DNA of 32,367 bases from contig JAJYJH010000022.1 in NCBI GenBank assembly GCA_021789695.1, positions 1-32,367 of the forward strand, read 5' to 3'. Source of the DNA: a bacterium. Its GTDB lineage: Bacteria; Elusimicrobiota; Elusimicrobia; Elusimicrobiales; UBA9959. The notes beneath the pieces were generated by a model, which was not told where the DNA came from, did not search any database, and saw only the letters and a list, made by a program, of their open reading frames with translations. Position numbers and translations under genes: made by a program. Shown here in pieces: positions 11,658 through 32,155 of the stretch (positions within the stretch are counted from its first letter, which is position 1; every line of letters begins with the position of its first letter).

Positions 11658-12308
11658 ATGTCGCTTAAAGTTATCATAGCTGACGATCACGCCATGGTGC
11701 GTGAAGGGATAAAGGCCCTGCTGGAAAAACGCGGCAGGGAGATGGAGGTGGCCGGCGAAGCTGCGGACGGACGGGAGCTTCTCGAACTGGCGCGCAGGAC
11801 TCCGGCCGACGTATACGTCATCGACGTGGGTATGCCGCACCTTAACGGGTTGGAGGCTGCCTCCAGGCTGCTGCGCCGGAACAGCGGCGCCAGGATCGTG
11901 TGTCTGGGCATGGAGTGCGACAGGGAAGCGGTACGCAAGGCGGTTATAGCCGGAGTGCGGGCCTACGTGCTGAAGGAGAACACCGCGGCGGAACTGATGA
12001 AGGCCATATACGCGGTGGCGCGCGGCGGCTCCTATTTCAGCTCGCAGGTCTCAGCCCTGGTCCCGGTCGGTCCAGCCGCCGGCGGCGCTCCGGAACTTCC
12101 CGACCAGGCAGGACGCCTTACCTCTAAGGAGAGGGAGATAATACAGCTCATCGCGGAGGGGCTGGCCGACAAGGAGATCTCCCGAAGACTAAGTATTTCC
12201 CGCAACACCGTGCACGCGCACCGCAACAACATATCCAGGAAGCTGGATATACACAAGCAGACCGACCTGGTGCGCTTCGCGATAAGGGAAAAGATAGCCG
12301 CGGTCTGA
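11658..12308 (+). CDS. NarL/FixJ-type response regulator with LuxR helix-turn-helix
   Basis: The 216-residue protein has a receiver domain (residues 1-~120) with the acidic pocket Asp9/Asp10 and phosphoacceptor Asp56 in VYVIDVGMPHLNG, and Lys106 in AYVLKENTAAEL. The C-terminal LuxR domain (~150-212) reads LTSKEREIIQLIAEGLADKE then SISRNTVHAHRNNISRKLDI. It should be a DNA-binding transcription regulator. The conserved Ser/Thr switch residue after beta-4 is Gly84 (RIVCLGMEC), which may weaken or alter phosphorylation-dependent activation. No histidine kinase lies nearby. GGAGG (11648-11652) precedes the ATG by 5 bases. The gene has its own promoter. Confidence 0.92.
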   Translation: MSLKVIIADDHAMVREGIKALLEKRGREMEVAGEAADGRELLELARRTPADVYVIDVGMPHLNGLEAASRLLRRNSGARIVCLGMECDREAVRKAVIAGVRAYVLKENTAAELMKAIYAVARGGSYFSSQVSALVPVGPAAGGAPELPDQAGRLTSKEREIIQLIAEGLADKEISRRLSISRNTVHAHRNNISRKLDIHKQTDLVRFAIREKIAAV

Positions 12309-16554: not shown

Positions 16555-17330
16555 TTCTTTGCCCTCTCCTTGTTCATGCGCGCCGCCATGGCCGTGCCAT
16601 GCAGCACCAGGTCAGGGACGATGTGGTCGAAGAGACCGGCGTCCCCGAACAGCTTGGAGAAACCGCCGGTGCCTATGACTAGCGCGTCCCCGCTGAAATA
16701 CCCCTTTTTTATCCTGGCGGCTATGCCCTCTATGGCCAGCAGGTTGGAATGGTAGAGGCCGGACTGGATGGAGTCCACCGTGGTCTTGCCCACGAGTTCA
16801 TGGGGCCTTACTATCTCGACGCGCGGCAGTTTGGCCGTGCGGGAGGCGAGCGCCTCCATCGAGATGCGCAGCCCCGGCATTATCAGTCCGCCGAGGTATT
16901 CTTTTTTCGCGGTGACCGCGCAGAACGTGGTGGCGGTGCCCAGGTCCACGATGACCAGATTCCTTTCCGGGAACATGGCGCCCGCCGCTATGGAATTGGC
17001 TATGCGGTCAGCCCCGACCTCCTGAGGGTTCTTGTACTTGATGTTGAGTCCCGTCCTGGCGCCGCCCTGCAGCAGGAACGGCTCGATGCCGAAGTACTTG
17101 GCGGACATCTGGTGCAGGGTGTAGAGGAGGTCCGGCACCACGGAACAGATTGCGACGTCGTCTATAGCTCGGCGGTCTATGTCGTTCTCGCGCAGGGCGT
17201 TTCTGAAGAAGGTGCCGAACTCGTCGGAGGTGGCGCTGCGGGAGGTGGCGCGGAACCTGGCTACGAGCTTCTCCTCCCTGAAGACACCGGCGAAGATCTG
17301 AGTGTTGCCCACGTCCAATGCTAGCAGCAT
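16551..17330 (-). CDS. coaX: type III pantothenate kinase
   Basis: The 259-residue protein has the ASKHA-fold motifs of CoaX: LALDVGNTQIFAGVF at the N-terminus (Asp6), GADRIANSIAA (substrate site) and VIVDLGTATTFCAVTAKKEY. It phosphorylates pantothenate to 4'-phosphopantothenate. CoaX enzymes typically need a monovalent cation and are not feedback-inhibited by CoA. It overlaps coaB upstream by 10 bases and panD downstream by 4. Confidence 0.96.
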   Translation of the reverse strand: MLLALDVGNTQIFAGVFREEKLVARFRATSRSATSDEFGTFFRNALRENDIDRRAIDDVAICSVVPDLLYTLHQMSAKYFGIEPFLLQGGARTGLNIKYKNPQEVGADRIANSIAAGAMFPERNLVIVDLGTATTFCAVTAKKEYLGGLIMPGLRISMEALASRTAKLPRVEIVRPHELVGKTTVDSIQSGLYHSNLLAIEGIAARIKKGYFSGDALVIGTGGFSKLFGDAGLFDHIVPDLVLHGTAMAARMNKERAKK

Positions 17331-18157
17331 ATTGCCTCCCTGGAACCCGTGCCCGCGCCGCCGCGTGAACGGGCTTTTAAAACACGTTCGGCCGCACCGT
17401 GGCCTCGCTCAAAATTCGCCCGCCGCGCTAGGCAAGCTGCGGGCTCAACGACGGTTTTGCGTTCCTGTCCCCGCGCCGCCACGTCCAAGGTCCCGATGAA
17501 TTCTGGTATCAAGTCAAAAAGTTTTTCGGCTAGTTCCTCCGGGCCCTCGCAGTCGAAGATACGGCGGCCGGAGCGGTAGATGTGGAAAGGATGGGTCTTC
17601 TTCATCTCGCGGGTGTCGTTGTGGACGACGAGGTCGGCGGAGGCGAGGGCGCGGACCTTCCTGAGCGCCTGCGCTTTGCCCGCGCCGGCGGTGAGCTTGA
17701 AAGCTATAAGGAGCGGCGCTGGGTGGCTGCCTGCCGCGGCGTAGGACTTTATGCGGTCTAATATCTTGAAGTTGCGGCGCAGGATCACGCGCAGCTCGCC
17801 CGCGGCGGAGGAGATCTTCGCGGAGCGCCCGGGGCGGTATTTCCTGGCGCCGGCCTCTATCAGGACCGGGGAATAGTCGCTGACCGCGGCAAGGTGGATG
17901 ACGGCGTCGAAACGCTCGGCCTTCAGCGCCGTCCTCAGCGCGGCGTCCAGGTCGGAGAAGGATTCGTAGTTCCTGACGCGGATGCCCCTGCCCGAAGGGC
18001 GCTCCGCCGCGGCGGAGCGCAGGCAGAGGACGGAGCAGGTGCGCGCGGCCAAAAGTTCAGCCAGGACGCGGCCGGTACGGCCGGTGCTTGTGTTGGTGAC
18101 GACGCGGGCGGCGTCTATATGCTCCCGCGTGCCGCCCGAGGTAATCAGCACCTTCAT
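17321..18157 (-). CDS. coaB: phosphopantothenate-cysteine ligase, stand-alone, with an extra tail
   Basis: Taken from the ATG at 18157, which overlaps the coaC stop (ATGA), the product is 278 residues. It has the CoaB motifs VLITSGGTREHID, VTNTSTGRTG, VIHLAAVSDY, LLIAFKLTAG and ADLVVHND. The enzyme joins phosphopantothenate and cysteine, using CTP in most bacteria. In many bacteria CoaB and CoaC are one fused protein, but here they are separate genes in the order coaC-coaB. The conserved domain ends near residue 220 (AEKLFDLIPEFIG). The last ~50 residues are Arg/Ala-rich and unlike the family; they are encoded by repeat copy A (17379-17460). Confidence 0.92.
   Translation of the reverse strand: MKVLITSGGTREHIDAARVVTNTSTGRTGRVLAELLAARTCSVLCLRSAAAERPSGRGIRVRNYESFSDLDAALRTALKAERFDAVIHLAAVSDYSPVLIEAGARKYRPGRSAKISSAAGELRVILRRNFKILDRIKSYAAAGSHPAPLLIAFKLTAGAGKAQALRKVRALASADLVVHNDTREMKKTHPFHIYRSGRRIFDCEGPEELAEKLFDLIPEFIGTLDVAARGQERKTVVEPAACLARRANFERGHGAAERVLKARSRGGAGTGSREAICC
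17379..17460 (-). repeat. short dispersed repeat, copy A, inside the 3' end of coaB
   Basis: Read on the minus strand, these 82 bases align without gaps to plus-strand 20316-20397, with about 61 identical positions by hand count. Shared blocks include GCAAAACCGTCGT, GCTTGC, GCGCGGC, GAGCGAGG, ACGGTG and GTTTT. The copy contains an imperfect stem (CCCGC/GCGGG). GGAACG (17466-17461 on minus) immediately precedes it. It encodes roughly residues 233-260 of CoaB, past the conserved domain. Confidence 0.7.
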
Positions 18158-18682
18158 AAGGCTTTCTCTATCTCCTTGCAGATGGCCTCCGGCTCCAGTA
18201 GGCGGCCTTCGCCTGTGTCGCCGCAGGCCTGGTAGCCCCTGGCGGGGCCCAGCAGCTTCACTCCCCAGCCCTGCAGCGTCTTCACCGAGCGTTTGGTCGC
18301 GGGGTGCGCCCACATACTGGCGTTCATCGCCGGGGCTATAAGATATGGCTTATTGAAGCCGCAGGCGAGGAAGATGGTGGAAATGTAGTCGTCGGCTATG
18401 CCGGCGGCGAACTTGTTGATGATGTTGGCGGTAGCCGGACAGACGATGGCCAGGTCCATCCACTTGGTAAGATTGATGTGCTCCAGCGCCGAGCGATCCT
18501 CGAAGGTGTCGGTATAAACGGCGCGACGGGTCAGGCCTTCCAGCGTGGACTTTCCTATGAACTTCAGGGCGTTCTGCGAGCAGACGGTCTTCACGTCGTG
18601 CCCTTCCTGCACCAGGCGGGAGACTACGTTGCACGCCTTGTAGCAGGCTATGGAGCCTGTCAACTGGAAGAGTATGTTGCTT

Positions 18683-18696
<14 letters not shown>
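18154..18696 (-). CDS. coaC: phosphopantothenoylcysteine decarboxylase, stand-alone
   Basis: The 180-residue flavoprotein has the HFCD-family motifs: ILFQLTGSIACYKA at the N-terminus, catalytic His73 in ALEHINLTKWMDL, the PAMNASMW motif (Asn125) and the lid ACGDTGEGRL with Cys158. It decarboxylates phosphopantothenoylcysteine to 4'-phosphopantetheine using FMN. It overlaps panC upstream by 14 bases and coaB downstream by 4, so translation of the three is coupled. Confidence 0.95.
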
Positions 18697-21219: not shown

Positions 21220-23139
21220 ATGACAAAGGACCGCCGCGGGCTTTTCCTCAACTTCCTGTTTCTCTTCCTCGGCTTCTCGCTGCTGACGCGGTTGACGCTG
21301 CTTGTGCTGGCCTGGCCGCACATGGACCCGGGCTTCTGGAATCACGCCTGGACCATAGTCAAGATGCTGCTGGCCGGCGTGTTCTACGACTGTGTCGCCT
21401 TCTCCTACGGCGCCGCCGCCCTGGCGTTTTACCTCTTGCTGCTGCCGGAGAGGATATACTCTCACAGCTGGCACAGGCCGGTGATGTACGCACTGTTCTT
21501 CGCCACGTCCGTGCTGCTGGCCTTCAATCTGGTGGCGGAATACTACTTTTACCTCGAGTTCGGCGTCCGGTACAACTTCATCGCCGTGGACTACTTGGTC
21601 TATACCAAGGAGGTGGTGGGCAACATCACCGAGTCCTACAATCTGCCGGTGGTGCTGCCGTCCGTGGTAGTGGCCGGCGCGGCCGCGCTGTGGCTTTTCG
21701 GCAAGCGGCTGTCGCTGTGCTTCGCCGAGAAGCTCTCCTTCGCCCGCAGGCTGGCCTGGGGCCTTCCCGTCCTGCTGCTGCCGTTGCTGTTCTACTTCAC
21801 CGTGGACAGCCGCCTTGCGCAGGTTTCGGATAACAACTACTGCAATGAAGTGGCGATGAACGGCTTCTACTCGCTCTGGTCCGCCTTCTTCGCTAACGAG
21901 CTGTCCTATAACAGGTTCTATAAAACCATAGACGACGCGCAGGTCTTCAGGATCCTGCGCGCGGACCTGGCCCAGCCCGGCGTGAAGTTCCTCGATGACG
22001 GAATGGACATCACGCGCACGGTCGCGGCTCGCCGCCCGCTGCGCAAACTCAACGTCGTCCTGGTGGTCGGCGAGAGCCTCAGTGCCGAGTACCTGGACGC
22101 CTTCGGCGCCTCGCACGGCAAGGGGGACCTGCCGACGCTCAACGCGCTGCGCGACAAGTCTCTTTTCTTCAACCGTTTTTACGCCAGCGGCACGCGCACC
22201 GTGCGCGGCCTGGAGGCTATCACTCTCTCCATACCGCCGCTGCCGGGCGAGTCCATCATCAAGCGCCCTGACAACGGGGATTTCTACTCCTGGGGCTCGG
22301 TGATGCGCGGGCTGGGCTACGAAACGCGCTTCATCTACGGAGGGTTCGGCTATTTCGATAACATGAACGAGTTCTTCTCGGCCAACGGCTACGATATCGT
22401 GGACCGCTCCGACTTCTCCAGCAACGAGGTCACCTTCGCCAACATCTGGGGCGTCTGCGACGAGGACCTGTTCATGAAGACCGTGCAGGTGGCCGATAAG
22501 GACTACAAGTCCGGCAAGCCGTTCTTCTACACGATAATGACCACGTCCAACCACCGGCCGTTCACCTACCCGGAGGGGAAGATAGATATTTCGCCTAAAG
22601 GCAAGACCCGCACCGGCGCGCTGAAGTACGCCGACTACTCCATAAGCCGCCTGCTGGCTGAGGCGCGCAAACGGCCCTGGTTCAAGGATACGGTCTTCAT
22701 CTTCACGGCGGACCATTGCGCCAACTCAGCCGGCCGCACCGATCTGCCGATCTACCACTACCACATTCCGCTCATCATCTACTCGCCGGGCAACGTCAAG
22801 CCGCGTTTGGTCAACACGCTGACCGCGCAGATGGACATGGGGCCTACGGTGCTTGGCCTGCTGGGCGTGCCATACACCAGCCGTTTCTTCGGCCGCGACA
22901 TCCTGGACGGCAAGCCGGCCGGCCGGGCCATGCTCTCCACCTACGAGAAGCTGGGCTTCCTGACCGACGACAAGCTGGCCGTGCTCTCCCCTCAGAAGTA
23001 CCTGGCCACCTACGAATGGAGCGACGACGGCTTCAAGAGGGCCCCCGATTCCGGCGACACGGCGTTCGGAGACGAAGCCGTCTCTTTCTATCAGGGCGCC
23101 AACTACATCTACAAGCACCGTTTGGACAGGATGAAATGA
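21220..23139 (+). CDS. LTA-synthase/OpgB-like membrane phosphotransferase (sulfatase fold)
   Basis: The 639-residue protein has five likely N-terminal membrane helices (within residues 8-190) and a large extracytoplasmic sulfatase-fold domain. Visible motifs are LNVVLVVGESLSAEYLDAFG (metal site), GTRTVRGLEAITLSIPP (nucleophile Thr near residue 327), TTSNHRPFTYP and FIFTADHCANS (metal ligands). Enzymes of this group move phosphoglycerol or phosphoethanolamine from lipids to glycans or lipids outside the membrane (LtaS, OpgB, BcsG). Substrate cannot be read from sequence. The stop overlaps the start of the TPR/beta-barrel gene (ATGA, 23136-23139), which points to a joint role at the cell surface. 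Confidence 0.9.
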   Translation: MTKDRRGLFLNFLFLFLGFSLLTRLTLLVLAWPHMDPGFWNHAWTIVKMLLAGVFYDCVAFSYGAAALAFYLLLLPERIYSHSWHRPVMYALFFATSVLLAFNLVAEYYFYLEFGVRYNFIAVDYLVYTKEVVGNITESYNLPVVLPSVVVAGAAALWLFGKRLSLCFAEKLSFARRLAWGLPVLLLPLLFYFTVDSRLAQVSDNNYCNEVAMNGFYSLWSAFFANELSYNRFYKTIDDAQVFRILRADLAQPGVKFLDDGMDITRTVAARRPLRKLNVVLVVGESLSAEYLDAFGASHGKGDLPTLNALRDKSLFFNRFYASGTRTVRGLEAITLSIPPLPGESIIKRPDNGDFYSWGSVMRGLGYETRFIYGGFGYFDNMNEFFSANGYDIVDRSDFSSNEVTFANIWGVCDEDLFMKTVQVADKDYKSGKPFFYTIMTTSNHRPFTYPEGKIDISPKGKTRTGALKYADYSISRLLAEARKRPWFKDTVFIFTADHCANSAGRTDLPIYHYHIPLIIYSPGNVKPRLVNTLTAQMDMGPTVLGLLGVPYTSRFFGRDILDGKPAGRAMLSTYEKLGFLTDDKLAVLSPQKYLATYEWSDDGFKRAPDSGDTAFGDEAVSFYQGANYIYKHRLDRMK

Positions 23140-24770
23140 GACGGCGGCCGTTAAGCGGTCTAGGGGCCTTGACGGCCGGACTCCTCCTCTACCTGTTCTT
23201 TGCGGGCGCGCCCGCCGAGGCCGAGCCCGGGGTCTCGTCAGGCGCGGCGCAGGACTCCTCCGTGCCCGGCGCGCCGGCCTCGTACGATTACGGCATGGAG
23301 TTGCGCCGGAGGGGGGACAATGCCGGCGCCAAAGCGGTATTCCTGAAGTTGCTGGAGAAGGACCCGTCCAGCACGGGGGCCCTGGAGGGACTTTCTCTGT
23401 CCTGCCTGTCGCTGGGGCAGTACAGGGAAGCCCGTGGGTATCTAAAGCGCTGGAACTCGCTTTCACCGCGCAGCAAGTACGCGCTTAGTCTTCTTCTCGA
23501 AGCGCAGGACCGGCTCAGGGACGAGGAGGGGGCGCTCAATACCTACCGCGAGCTGGCTGCCTGCGCTTCCGTAGACTGCTCGGTCAAGGAGGGGCTGGAT
23601 TCCTACATGGAAAAGCTGCGCGGAGGGATCTTCCCCTACGGCAAGTCCTACAGGACGCGTTCCATGGAGGACCTGGATACGTCCAGCCCGCAGCGCATCC
23701 TTTACGAGGGGAGTTCCGCCGGCGCGTCTTTTCGGGAGCCGCTCAAGCCTGGCCTGGACCTTATCGGGGGGGCTGAGCTGGCGGAAGAAGCCCAGCGCAA
23801 CGAAACCGACCCCGGTCATGAGTTCTCCTACTACGATATCCTGGACCAGACCTATTCCGCCGGGTTGTCCGGTCGCCCGGACAGGGACTTCAATTGGGAG
23901 GCGGAGTACGGCCAGTCCGAGCTTTACGACCTTAAGGGCTCGGCGGTCGGCCACAGGCTGTTCAGCAACGTCCGCCTCTCCGGCCAGTTCTACTCCGGAG
24001 ATTCCAGGTTGAACCTTTCCCTGACCCGCTCTCCCAGGTACCTGCGCGGCTACGATTCTTCGGGGGCTTATTTCAGGCTGTTGGGGGAGAATTCGGCTAA
24101 GGCGGAGGGCGAGTTCAGCCGCTGGGACTGGGACTGGCTGGCCAGGGCCGGGCTAGTCAACACTTCGGACGGCAGCAACAGGCCATCGTGGGCGGTGAGC
24201 GGCGCGAGGGAGCTGGATAGCGACGTGCTGCAGGCCGGCTACTATCACGGCCAGCAGCAGTTCTACAACGGCTCCGCCGACAGGAAGCTGAGATACGTCG
24301 ATACTGACGACCTCGTCCTGAGCTTCAGGCGCTACGTTAATGAGAGGTACCGGGCCGCGGTTTCATACGGCTATACCTCCTATTCCGATTCCAACGCGCA
24401 GGGTCACCTGGAGGGGGAGCTGACCGGCTGGCTGCCGTGGCAGAGGAACCTCTATGGAACCTACAGGTATTCCAGGCAGGATTTCCGGGACGCCTACGGC
24501 GGCTACTATTCGTTAGATACGCGCGCCCACTGGCTGGGCGTTTACTGGCGCGCCTGCGGCGGCCGGGACTGGTCGGCCTCGGCGGGTTACGAGCGCGGCT
24601 TCGTCTACGACCGCGTCCGGCACAGCTACGAGGGCAACAACTATCTCGCCGGCCTGGACTGGTACTCCGGCTCGCGCGCCTCCGTCCGCCTCAGCGCGGG
24701 AGAGAGCGATACTACCGTCGGCGACAAGTCCTACTCCGTCGGGCTGAAGGCCAGGTACAGTTTCCGTTGA
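23136..24770 (+). CDS. exported TPR plus outer-membrane beta-barrel protein
   Basis: From the ATG at 23136, coupled to the previous gene, the product is 544 residues. Order: signal peptide (LSGLGALTAGLLLYLFFAGA, cleaved near residue 30), TPR-like repeats at about 50-160 (YDYGMELRRRGDNAGAKAVF, ALEGLSLSCLSLGQYREARG), then from ~235 a long series of alternating aromatic beta strands ending in YSVGLKARYSFR. This TPR-then-barrel plan is that of polysaccharide exporters such as BcsC, PgaA and PelB, and of YaiO. The frame is open upstream into the LTA-synthase gene, but that part is out-of-frame shadow. The convergent glycosyltransferase gene ends 19 bases downstream. Confidence 0.8.
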   Translation: MRRRPLSGLGALTAGLLLYLFFAGAPAEAEPGVSSGAAQDSSVPGAPASYDYGMELRRRGDNAGAKAVFLKLLEKDPSSTGALEGLSLSCLSLGQYREARGYLKRWNSLSPRSKYALSLLLEAQDRLRDEEGALNTYRELAACASVDCSVKEGLDSYMEKLRGGIFPYGKSYRTRSMEDLDTSSPQRILYEGSSAGASFREPLKPGLDLIGGAELAEEAQRNETDPGHEFSYYDILDQTYSAGLSGRPDRDFNWEAEYGQSELYDLKGSAVGHRLFSNVRLSGQFYSGDSRLNLSLTRSPRYLRGYDSSGAYFRLLGENSAKAEGEFSRWDWDWLARAGLVNTSDGSNRPSWAVSGARELDSDVLQAGYYHGQQQFYNGSADRKLRYVDTDDLVLSFRRYVNERYRAAVSYGYTSYSDSNAQGHLEGELTGWLPWQRNLYGTYRYSRQDFRDAYGGYYSLDTRAHWLGVYWRACGGRDWSASAGYERGFVYDRVRHSYEGNNYLAGLDWYSGSRASVRLSAGESDTTVGDKSYSVGLKARYSFR

Positions 24771-24789
24771 GGCTTCCCCGCATCCCCGG

Positions 24790-26196
24790 TTATTTGGAAG
24801 GCCCCATCGTGCGCCTGTCCTGCTGGCCCCAGTCGCGCTTGCGGAAGGTGAGCGTGGCCTTGAGGCGTTCCAGCAGCATCAGTTGCCTGTAGCCGAAGAA
24901 TTCCAGCGCGCCGAGGAGGCAGAGCCTCAGGATGTCGGAGTTCCGCTTGTAGCGCCTGAAATTATAGATATCAAGGAAGACGGCCCCGATGTTTATCGAG
25001 ATGCCCCACAGGACGGCCATCAGCAGCAGGACGAAGGACCTGGCGCTCAGCATGCCGAGGAAGTAGAGGGCTGGTATCGCCAGGTAGCCGAAGAGCTCTA
25101 TCAGCGGGCCGAAGAGCTCTACGAACACGAAATAAGAGACGCCGGCCAGGCTGGTCTCTCCGTATTTAGGGTTGAGGACCATGGCGCGGTTGAAAAGCAG
25201 CGCGTCTATCATGCCGCGGTGCCAGCGGTTGCGCTGGCGCAGCAGCATCCTCAGCGTGAAGGGCGCCTGAGTCCAGCAGACCGGGTCCGGCACGAAGAGG
25301 ATCCTGTAGGGGATCCCTTTCTCGTGGCAGTGGCGGTGCAGCCGCATAACCAGATCCATGTCCTCGCCGACCGTCCTGCGGTAGCCGCCCACGGCTATCA
25401 CCACGTCCTTGCGGAACACGCCGAAGGCGCCGGAGATTATCAGCAGGCTGTTCAACGCGTTCCAGCCGGTCCTGCCGGAGAGAAAGGAGCGGGTGTATTC
25501 CAGCACCTGCATGGCCTCCAGCGTAGTCGAGGGCAAGGCTATCTCGGTAACAGCCCCGCCCTCCACCCTGCAGCCGTTCAGAATGCGGATTATCCCGCCG
25601 GTGGCTATCAGCGAATCGTCCTCGAGGAACAGCTTGGAGGACTTCAGCAACGCGTCGGGCTCCAGCAGGGAATCCGCGTCTATGGAACAGAAGATCGGGT
25701 AGGAGGAAACGTTGACGCCGGCGTTGATGGCGTCGGCCTTGCCGCCGTTGAGCTTGTCCACCACTATCAGGTCCGGATATTCGGTGGAGCGGTAGACGGC
25801 CTGGATCTCCTCGTGCTGGACCTGGAGCCTCACCGGCTTGATGGAAGACTTCAGACCGAACTCCTCCCTGAGCACGGCCAGCGTGCCGTCTTCGGAACCG
25901 TCGTTGACGACTATAACCTCGAACTCGGGGTAATGCAGGTTCAGCAGGGCCCTGACGCTCTGCGCGATGACGGCGGCCTCGTTGTGCGCCGGCACGATCA
26001 CCGAGACCGGCTTGTAATAGAACTCGCCGGCCAGCTGGCGGCGCGCCGTCCTGGAAGTGCTCAGGTAGGCGTGCTTCACTATGTCTCGCAGGGCCAGGAC
26101 TATCAGCATCGTATAGACGCTGTTTACCGCCAGGAAATAGAGGAGGACGGCGTACTGGGATAACTGCACCGCGAAACGCAGCAGGGGGCCGCTCAT
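24790..26196 (-). CDS. processive-type family 2 glycosyltransferase
   Basis: The 468-residue membrane enzyme has an N-terminal helix pair (about 12-40), a GT-A domain and a C-terminal cluster of three or four membrane helices (~345-440). Catalytic motifs are complete: Asp99 in VVNDGSEDG, Asp173 and Asp175 in CSIDADSLLE, Glu278-Asp279 in TVGEDMD, and Gln321-Arg-Asn-Arg-Trp325. D,D,D,QxxRW is the signature of cellulose, hyaluronan and poly-GlcNAc synthases. It should make a polymer from a UDP- or GDP-sugar and thread it through the inner membrane. There is no PilZ domain, so direct c-di-GMP control as in BcsA is not expected. Its start overlaps the HEAT gene stop (26193-26196, ATGA). Confidence 0.9.
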   Translation of the reverse strand: MSGPLLRFAVQLSQYAVLLYFLAVNSVYTMLIVLALRDIVKHAYLSTSRTARRQLAGEFYYKPVSVIVPAHNEAAVIAQSVRALLNLHYPEFEVIVVNDGSEDGTLAVLREEFGLKSSIKPVRLQVQHEEIQAVYRSTEYPDLIVVDKLNGGKADAINAGVNVSSYPIFCSIDADSLLEPDALLKSSKLFLEDDSLIATGGIIRILNGCRVEGGAVTEIALPSTTLEAMQVLEYTRSFLSGRTGWNALNSLLIISGAFGVFRKDVVIAVGGYRRTVGEDMDLVMRLHRHCHEKGIPYRILFVPDPVCWTQAPFTLRMLLRQRNRWHRGMIDALLFNRAMVLNPKYGETSLAGVSYFVFVELFGPLIELFGYLAIPALYFLGMLSARSFVLLLMAVLWGISINIGAVFLDIYNFRRYKRNSDILRLCLLGALEFFGYRQLMLLERLKATLTFRKRDWGQQDRRTMGPSK

Positions 26197-27281
26197 CGCC
26201 CCTCCTGCGTCAGGGCGTAGGCGGCCGTTTCGGCGGCGAAGCGGTCGGGGGAGGCCGTCTCTTCCTTCAAGACCGCAGTCCCCTTGTCGCCCGAGCGCCG
26301 TAAGGCCATGGCCGCCGCCATGCGCACGTGGTAGTTGGGGTCGCGCAGCATTGGGCGGATCTCGGGCCGCAGGTCGGCGCAGCAGGCGTCCGAGTTATTG
26401 AGCGCCGTCATGCGTACGCGCCAGTCCGGGTGCTTCAGCGCGGCTGGGATGAAAGCGAAGTCGCCTATCCTGGCCAGGGCCTTCAGGGCGGCGATGAGTA
26501 TCTCCGGCTCCTCCGGGTTGTTCAGGTAGTAGTCATGGAGGATCGCGCGGCCTTCTCCGCACGAGGCGTCGTAGCAGGCCGTGAGCATATCCCTTTTGAT
26601 CAGGACCGGGACAAAGCCGTCGCTCATAACCTCGCGCATGAAGGCGCCGAAGTCTCCCGCCGCGTCCCTGTCCTTTAGCGCCCTGACCGCGTTGTAGAAT
26701 ATGTCCTCGGTGTACTTGGCCGTCAGGTAGGGGAGAGCGGAGAGAGCCGCGACTATCTCCAGGATATCCCCTTTGCCTCTGGCCAGGAAGCTAAGCCCGT
26801 AGATGACGCGGTATTTCACCTCGTTCACCGTCTCGAGGTGCAGCGCCGACCGGAGGAACTCCCTGTTGGAGGGAAGGCGGAACGAGGAGAGGATGTCTAT
26901 GGCGCTGGCGCGCTTGTACCAGGTCCGGTGCCTGGCCAGGCGGCGGTAATAGGCAGCTATGCCGAGCTGGTCTACCAAGCGGACGGCCTTGGCCGCGATC
27001 TCCCCTTCGAAGCTGTCCAGAACGCTGGCTATGGCTTCGCTGTAAGCAGAGAACTCTTCGTTATCGGAAGGCTTCGGCAGCAGCTCCTCGGGGGCCGTCG
27101 CCGTTATTATGGCCGTGGAGGCCAGCCTCTTCAGCTCCGTCCTGCGCTTTTCGGAAAGCTCGACCTTCCGCTTGTTGTAGAAAAGGAAGAAAACTTCCGC
27201 GACGTTGAAGGCCGCAAGGAACAGTACCCCGTAAAAGACGTATTTGTAGAAATCAGGGGATTGGGTCAGGAGATCCGGCAT
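26193..27281 (-). CDS. membrane-anchored HEAT-repeat protein
   Basis: The 362-residue product has one N-terminal membrane helix (about residues 12-32, YKYVFYGVLFLAAFNVAEVF), a charged coiled segment (KRKVELSEKRRTELKRL), then helical HEAT-type repeats to the C-terminus. The clearest are ILIAALKALARIGDFAFIPA, HPDWRVRMTALNNSDACC and DPNYHVRMAAAMALRRSGD. HEAT solenoids are scaffolds with no enzymatic role. Placed between a receiver protein and a GT2 with tight coupling, it probably links signal input to the synthase. The catalytic part would face the cytoplasm if the N-terminus is outside. Confidence 0.82.
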   Translation of the reverse strand: MPDLLTQSPDFYKYVFYGVLFLAAFNVAEVFFLFYNKRKVELSEKRRTELKRLASTAIITATAPEELLPKPSDNEEFSAYSEAIASVLDSFEGEIAAKAVRLVDQLGIAAYYRRLARHRTWYKRASAIDILSSFRLPSNREFLRSALHLETVNEVKYRVIYGLSFLARGKGDILEIVAALSALPYLTAKYTEDIFYNAVRALKDRDAAGDFGAFMREVMSDGFVPVLIKRDMLTACYDASCGEGRAILHDYYLNNPEEPEILIAALKALARIGDFAFIPAALKHPDWRVRMTALNNSDACCADLRPEIRPMLRDPNYHVRMAAAMALRRSGDKGTAVLKEETASPDRFAAETAAYALTQEGR

Positions 27282-27287
27282 CCGTGA

Positions 27288-27662
27288 CTAGCTTTTCCGG
27301 CCCTGCAGGAACTTGTCTATCCTGAGCTTAAGGTGCTCGACGTTAACAGGTTTGGTGATGTATTCCTCTATGCCTAGCTCGTAGCCCTTGTGGATGTTGC
27401 CCTCCTGCTTAAGCGAGGTCAGCATGAAGATGGGAGTGCCCCTTGTCTCGGGCTTTTCCTTCAGCTTCTTGGCGACGTCGAAGCCTGACATCTTCGGCAT
27501 GTTTACGTCCAGCAGTATCAGGTCCGGGGCGAGGGAGGCCGCTTTTTCTACGCCCTCCGGCCCGTCCATCGCGCTCTCAACCGTGTAGCCCGCCCTACCC
27601 AGGTAGGCCCTGCAGATCAGGTGCATGGTTTCGTCGTCGTCAACGATAAGTATCTTGGGCAT
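27288..27662 (-). CDS. stand-alone receiver protein (CheY-like)
   Basis: The 124-residue protein is a bare receiver domain: acidic pocket in ILIVDDDETM (Asp8-Asp10), phosphoacceptor Asp52 in LILLDVNMPKMSG, switch Thr82 in FMLTSL and Lys104 in YITKP. All key residues are present, so it should be phosphorylated normally. There is no output domain, so it must act by binding a partner. It lies 6 bases upstream of the HEAT gene and is the first gene of the receiver-HEAT-GT2 operon. Confidence 0.93.
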   Translation of the reverse strand: MPKILIVDDDETMHLICRAYLGRAGYTVESAMDGPEGVEKAASLAPDLILLDVNMPKMSGFDVAKKLKEKPETRGTPIFMLTSLKQEGNIHKGYELGIEEYITKPVNVEHLKLRIDKFLQGRKS

Positions 27663-27710
27663 ATGCCGCGGTCCAGCCCGGCCCCCGCGCTGAGGCCGGG
27701 CGAACCGTCC

Positions 27711-31786: not shown

Positions 31787-32155
31787 CAACTGAAGTCAAA
31801 GAGCAGCGACGGCTTTAGAAAAGCGATAAACAAGCGTCTTTGCCGCTATCCCGAGCATATGCTCAGGACCATGACCTACGACAACGGCAGCGAGAACGCG
31901 CAGCACGAAGAAGTTAACGCCAAGTTGGGCATGAGGTCCTACTTCTGCGCGCCGTACCACAGCTGGGAAAAAGGTTCGGTCGAAAACGCCATCGGCCTTG
32001 TGCGGATCTTTTTTCCTAAAGGCACCGACTTCGCCACAGTAACCAAAGATCAGGTAAAACGAGCAGAAGATCTGCTAAACACGCGGCCGCGGAAATGCCT
32101 GGACTACAGGACCCCGGTCGAAGTTTTTAAACAGGGTGTTGCACTTCGCGGTTGA
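31787..32155 (+). mobile_element. IS30-family transposase, 5'-truncated
   Basis: The frame is open from 31787 and encodes the last ~120 residues of an IS30 transposase: AINKRLCRYPEHMLRTMTYD-NGSE, NAQHEEVNAKLGMRSYFCAP, YHSWEKGSVENAIGLVRIFF, PKGTDF and LLNTRPRKCLDYRTPVEVF. The second catalytic Asp (TYDNG) and the Glu (SVEN) are present. The N-terminal helix-turn-helix and first catalytic Asp are missing, since the family is usually 320-380 residues. An in-frame TAA lies just upstream at 31784-31786. The copy cannot be active on its own. Confidence 0.88.

Follow-up and report, generated by a model that had tools for sequence, protein, structure and literature searches.

The window analysed here, 32,367 nucleotides of contig JAJYJH010000022.1 (assembly GCA_021789695.1), comes from an Elusimicrobiota metagenome-assembled genome (MAG) of 2.4 Mb and 96% completeness. 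An earlier note, made from the sequence alone, had placed five genes in two convergent units between positions 21,220 and 27,662, and we confirmed all five at their coordinates. Four of them, encoding a receiver protein (REC), a HEAT-repeat protein (HEAT), a family 2 glycosyltransferase (GT2) and a β-barrel protein (BAR), form one cassette, judging by gene order and co-occurrence. We read it, with a probability of about 0.78, as a synthase-dependent polysaccharide secretion cassette with HEAT as the synthase partner. The features of the locus are as follows:

27288–27662, minus strand: REC, a bare CheY-like receiver of 124 aa (Response_reg), the first gene of the cassette
26193–27281, minus strand: HEAT, a membrane-anchored HEAT-repeat protein (HEAT_2) with one predicted transmembrane segment
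24790–26196, minus strand: GT2, a processive-type membrane glycosyltransferase of 468 aa without PilZ (Pfam/NCBIfam)
23136–24770, plus strand: BAR, a putative tetratricopeptide repeat (TPR) and β-barrel outer-membrane exporter of 544 aa (alignment, model, Foldseek)
21220–23139, plus strand: LTA1, a lipoteichoic acid (LTA)-synthase-like enzyme of 639 aa (match to 3lxq), a resident neighbour and not a part of the cassette
27663–27710, minus strand: the 48-bp junction between a peptidyl-prolyl isomerase (PPIase) gene and REC, with a GC-rich inverted repeat and no T run

The genes are tightly packed: ATGA overlaps join LTA1 to the barrel gene and HEAT to GT2, the spacing between REC and HEAT is 6 bp, and the ends of the convergent units lie 19 bp apart. 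The true start of the barrel gene is the ATG at 23136, the mechanically called open reading frame (ORF) from 22716 being too long.

GT2 carries the motifs NDGS(98), DADS(173), GEDMD(277) and QRNRW(321), and no PilZ domain was found in it with Pfam, in agreement with the earlier description of a D,D,D,QRNRW enzyme lacking PilZ. Together with its transmembrane segments, these motifs give it the features of a processive-type GT2 (D,D,D,Q(Q/R)xRW plus transmembrane helices), which suggest processivity. Its best NCBIfam match was PgaC_IcaA at 122.5 bits, far below the equivalog cut-off of 422, and an assignment to PgaC/IcaA was rejected. The same applies to BcsA cellulose synthase (CelA, 44.7 vs 699 bits; no PilZ).

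BAR has a signal peptide, a TPR region and the C-terminal residues ARYSFR; its alignment comprised 16 members. The AlphaFold model shows seven TPR-type helices followed by about 19 strands, and Foldseek placed BcsC (9b8a) at the top and the PgaA barrel (4y25) in seventh place, with low global TM-scores and with BtuB and other barrels also matching.

HEAT matches HEAT_2 in Pfam (E = 1e-15) and has a single predicted transmembrane segment, the hydrophobic stretch 14–37, followed by basic residues. Its AlphaFold2 model (pLDDT 88.6) consists of a long helix at 11–60 and then a HEAT solenoid. By the positive-inside rule, the solenoid is probably cytoplasmic, with the N-terminal helix as its anchor. 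Across phyla, the most conserved stretch is the C-terminal end (W287, V289-R290, D314, R320 and D346). REC matches Response_reg (E = 4e-28) and retains all phosphorylation residues, namely the acidic pair D9/D10, D52, T82 and K104, and hence has the intact receiver site of a two-component phosphorelay.

Distribution of the cassette in related and distant genomes

Full-length HEAT was present in 17 of 101 related genomes, close GT2 in exactly those 17, and the barrel in the same 17 plus G021 and G029. In G029, an LTA2 match (a cassette gene of some relatives, described below) starts at contig base 5, and the expected HEAT-GT2 part would fall past the contig end. In every one of the 17 Elusimicrobiota carriers, the next gene 5' of HEAT is REC. 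The PPIase gene and LTA1 are adjacent in four relatives lacking the cassette (L069, L070, L075 and L076), one of which, L069, shows the intact order FNR-rubrerythrin-PPIase-LTA1-DUF2520-panB-panC-coaC-coaX. This locates the cassette as a block inside the PPIase-LTA1 gap. The earlier note had joined all five genes in one system and proposed checking whether the two operons stay together in other genomes. REC-HEAT-GT2 and the barrel gene do stay together, and this part of the claim holds for the four genes that travel as a cassette; LTA1 falls outside it, as set out below.

The cassette-less relatives have a terminator with a GC stem and a T run between PPIase and LTA1, and this element is absent from the PPIase-REC junction of the window. 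REC-HEAT-GT2 may therefore be transcribed by read-through from the PPIase gene. A promoter scan of the 20.9–28.8 kb interval gave nothing better than chance.

Using the window GT2 as a query against genome contigs and plasmids, we examined 26 distant loci. The plasmid scan returned 14 records at 32–44% identity, with the remainder at ~30% or lower, and seven of the lower-identity enzymes served as controls. A tree built from 29 clade members and these 7 controls separated the HEAT-linked clade with support of 100/99, a split that is partly built in, since the controls were picked for lower similarity. The clade spans eight phyla (Elusimicrobiota, Pseudomonadota, Bacteroidota, Spirochaetota, Chloroflexota, Deinococcota, Bacillota and haloarchaea), and D,D,D,QRNRW is conserved throughout it; invariant positions in the clade alignment include D99, D173, D175, E278-D279 and Q321-R322-R324-W325.

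A HEAT-type gene lies directly upstream of GT2 in 25 of the 26 distant loci. Pfam, the record annotation or a HEAT profile identified it, and 12–13 loci had not been part of the training set of the profile. The exception, L039, has a similar-sized membrane protein in this position with no detectable HEAT match. No HEAT gene was found near any of the seven control enzymes. The window GT2 belongs to this HEAT-linked clade by its position in the tree and by the HEAT gene directly upstream of it. Querying plasmids with the HEAT protein of Stenotrophomonas gave no match, whereas querying them with GT2 did. Taken on gene order and phylogeny, HEAT plus GT2 is the core of the cassette across phyla and domains.

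The barrel follows the outer membrane. It was found in 14/16 diderm loci and 0/10 monoderm loci (p = 1e-5), a count in which the loci are not phylogenetically independent, the L059 barrel is split by a frameshift, the L060 barrel is weak, and 6 of the 14 diderm barrels had trained the detection profile. Presence only where an outer membrane exists is expected of an outer-membrane exporter. Alignment, model, Foldseek ranking and this diderm/monoderm split all agree with the TPR plus outer-membrane barrel build of diderm exporters, and the earlier reading of the protein as a one-chain exporter gains support. On this distribution, the barrel is an outer-membrane-specific addition to the HEAT+GT2 core. 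The barrels of the distant cassettes are of the YaiO type (TIGR04390, E down to 5e-50).

Control of the synthase and alternative readings

Cyclic di-GMP (c-di-GMP) controls the synthase-dependent systems that have been studied most (cellulose, alginate, Pel, poly-N-acetylglucosamine and Listeria Pss). The cassette lacks the usual co-polymerase or regulatory subunits (PilZ, BcsB, PgaD) and has HEAT and REC in their place. In the mechanism that we propose, GT2 would polymerise a nucleotide sugar and move the chain across the inner membrane, and the TPR/barrel protein would take the chain over the outer membrane. HEAT, anchored by its one N-terminal helix, would be a dedicated partner subunit of GT2, and the phosphorylated receiver would most likely dock on the HEAT solenoid and gate or localise the synthase. 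We infer processivity, the polymer, the contacts between the proteins and the sign of the receiver effect.

Gating of the synthase by the receiver through HEAT is plausible from the gene order, which is its support, and we place it just short of an even chance. In 14/26 distant loci, three haloarchaea among them, REC is encoded no more than two genes away from HEAT. It is immediately 5' of HEAT in Chloroflexota and two of the haloarchaea, with one small gene between them in the third. Receivers from Elusimicrobiota, Chloroflexota, haloarchaea and Alphaproteobacteria keep the residues of the phosphorylation site, and the loci of Mesorhizobium, Devosia, Emticicia and Haloarcula also contain histidine kinase or Hpt genes. 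Methanobacteriaceae have a receiver fused to a BcsA-like GT2 (PF13641, MTH_548), as reported in an archaeal survey (PMC5847659), which makes a receiver-synthase link plausible.

Several observations weigh against this picture. The AlphaFold model of BAR is weak (pLDDT 67.7), with a TM score to BcsC of only 0.26, and TIGR04390 and PF19413 match none of the 16 window-type barrels, so that the window barrel was rejected as a YaiO protein. Fold matching of HEAT returned generic ARM/HEAT proteins only and no functional relative. No REC was seen near the Stenotrophomonas, Treponema, Legionella, Deinococcus and Bacillota loci. In the Bacteroidota receivers (L041, L042, L044, L046 and L057), the conserved lysine is gone, in some of them together with the acidic residue pair or the aspartate that accepts the phosphoryl group, which suggests that they are pseudo-receivers. 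Since about half of the distant loci lack REC and the Bacteroidota receivers are degenerate, phosphorylation cannot be a general requirement. Finally, the host genome has 6 GGDEF and 2 PilZ matches, and c-di-GMP could act through another protein.

In an alternative reading, HEAT serves only the assembly or localisation of the synthase, and the receiver acts elsewhere, for example in motility, or is a pseudo-receiver scaffold. The distant loci without REC are in its favour, including the monoderm ones (L040, L043, L045, L048, L050 and L058), which keep HEAT, as are the Bacteroidota receivers without the equivalent of K104 and sometimes of D52. The intact receivers near HEAT argue the other way: they stand directly 5' of it in every Elusimicrobiota carrier, in Chloroflexota and in two haloarchaea, while a third haloarchaeon has just one small gene in between. 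We regard the alternative as rather doubtful.

A further possibility is that the GT2 product is a membrane-anchored glycolipid or wall polymer and not a secreted free polysaccharide. The presence of the core in monoderms and archaea would suit it, but diderms carry the TPR barrel, and many loci contain glycosidase-like genes (TIM, below), as other secretion systems do; we consider it unlikely. Still less probable is control by c-di-GMP through a separate receptor, like PssE in the Listeria Pss exopolysaccharide system (PMC4125290), a precedent to which the GGDEF and PilZ matches of the host genome lend some weight. The cassette itself encodes no GGDEF, PilZ or BcsB protein, and REC-HEAT-GT2 is present in haloarchaea, while response regulators with GGDEF/EAL outputs are reportedly absent from archaea (PMC5847659).

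Beyond secretion by a cassette with HEAT as synthase partner, we put forward a broader and tentative generalisation. Bacteria and archaea may share a class of polysaccharide synthases that require a membrane HEAT protein as their second subunit and are switched on, without c-di-GMP, when a single-domain receiver in its phosphorylated form binds this subunit, with barrels, phosphotransferases and glycosidases as lineage-specific additions. If true, two-component signalling would act on polymer secretion directly, at the post-translational level, and the same synthase core would extend to haloarchaea and Gram-positives. Many genes whose annotation now stops at HEAT repeat protein, response regulator or YaiO family would gain a possible function, and the rule that the barrel occurs only with an outer membrane offers a simple test of its role in export.

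Accessory genes of relatives and the neighbouring LTA1

Several relatives have up to three extra genes between GT2 and the barrel gene, which we call MEM, LTA2 and TIM. None of them lies between the GT2 and barrel genes of the window; no copies of LTA2 or TIM were found elsewhere in the host genome, where the LTA2 search matched only LTA1. MEM (L020:8407-9510 and relatives) is a membrane protein encoded beside GT2 in many Elusimicrobiota, with a phosphatase-like loop HCYLGKDR (CX5R); its target might be the receiver pathway or a lipid. LTA2 (L020:9967-12390, L036:9784-12162, L057:8637-10601) is common to the Elusimicrobiota, Stenotrophomonas and Emticicia cassettes at 35–58% identity. It is a distinct LTA-synthase-like enzyme with the invariant motifs GRTF and GDHRLPEIP, and a candidate decorating enzyme in these relatives. 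TIM (L020:12390-13316, L036:12162-13088, L037:5765-6652) is glycosidase-like with a conserved LDxEPH motif; its closest solved chain is 10yv_A (E = 5e-18), and it had no match in Pfam or NCBIfam.

Hints to the product come from neighbourhoods. In a haloarchaeal plasmid cassette of Halosolutus (L051:5938-10544), a sugar nucleotidyltransferase gene and glmS come after REC-HEAT-GT2; they hint at UDP-N-acetylglucosamine as donor and would fit an amino-sugar polymer. PgaC/IcaA as the best model for GT2 is another hint. In the Legionella locus, a nucleotide-sugar dehydrogenase and epimerases flank GT2.

LTA1 has five predicted transmembrane helices, a Sulfatase match in Pfam (E = 1e-41) and the motifs VGES(283), GTRTVRG(324), ADH(497) and YHYHIP(512). 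Its closest solved protein is the uncharacterised VP1736 (PDB 3lxq, E = 4e-73). Its scores are below the NCBIfam equivalog cut-offs for LtaS (52.8 vs 970) and phosphoglycerol transferase I (62.9 vs 572). The earlier note had given this gene the role of decorating the polymer within a single five-gene system, in the way that BcsG modifies cellulose with a phospho-group. The motifs of LTA1 for metal and nucleophile seem to be preserved, the gene overlaps that of the barrel in the window and adjoins it in several relatives, and a different LTA-like enzyme, LTA2, does belong to cassettes elsewhere. Close copies (at least 54% identity), however, occur in 9/17 cassette carriers and 20/42 non-carriers of the family (Fisher p = 0.78), LTA1 sits beside PPIase where the cassette is missing, and LTA2 itself is absent from the host genome. 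On this co-occurrence and on the cassette-less sites, LTA1 was rejected as a cassette gene, the decorating role is not supported, and the five-gene reading is improbable. Nor was there a pattern of LTA1 substituting for lost LTA2, as the ten carriers without LTA2 comprise four with close LTA1 and six without. As far as these comparisons go, LTA1 is a long-standing resident neighbour that the cassette does not need.

Elsewhere in the window, CoaC and CoaB (17321–18696) are separate overlapping ORFs and not the usual fused CoaBC, which is either real or a frameshift of the MAG. A 216-aa ORF at 11658–12308 has a weak receiver-domain match (~23 bits to the cassette REC) and is unrelated to the cassette. 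Near the right end, an ORF at 31859–32155 resembles, by eye, the C-terminal part of an IS30-type transposase.

Comparison with known systems

The earlier note did not know the combination as a described system, and we likewise found no description of HEAT and GT2 with a receiver (or YaiO) in the open literature, a search that left most subscription journals outside. Synthase-dependent secretion is a known kind of system, of which the HEAT partner with a receiver appears to make a new variant.

The cassette resembles Pga/Ica (PgaA-PgaC-PgaD) in its processive-type GT2, with PgaC_IcaA as the best NCBIfam model, and in the one-chain TPR and barrel exporter. It differs in lacking a deacetylase and PgaD, in having the HEAT partner and receiver, and in the GT2 score of 122 vs 422 bits. 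With Bcs (BcsA-BcsC-BcsG) it shares a GT2 bearing D,D,D,QxxRW and a barrel whose best fold match is BcsC, and the LTA2-type enzyme of relatives recalls BcsG; however, PilZ and BcsB are absent, and the LTA1 of the window is unlinked to the cassette. The barrels of distant cassettes belong to the YaiO family, whereas the Elusimicrobiota barrel family fails its model.

The REC-GT2 fusions of Methanobacteriaceae (MTH_548) likewise tie a receiver physically to a BcsA-like GT2 (PMC5847659), but as a fusion, with no HEAT reported and with a GT2 that may be of another clade. Listeria Pss (PssA-E) also uses a synthase-type GT2 for a secreted polymer; its partner, in contrast, is the c-di-GMP receptor PssE, and its GT2 lies outside the HEAT-linked clade.

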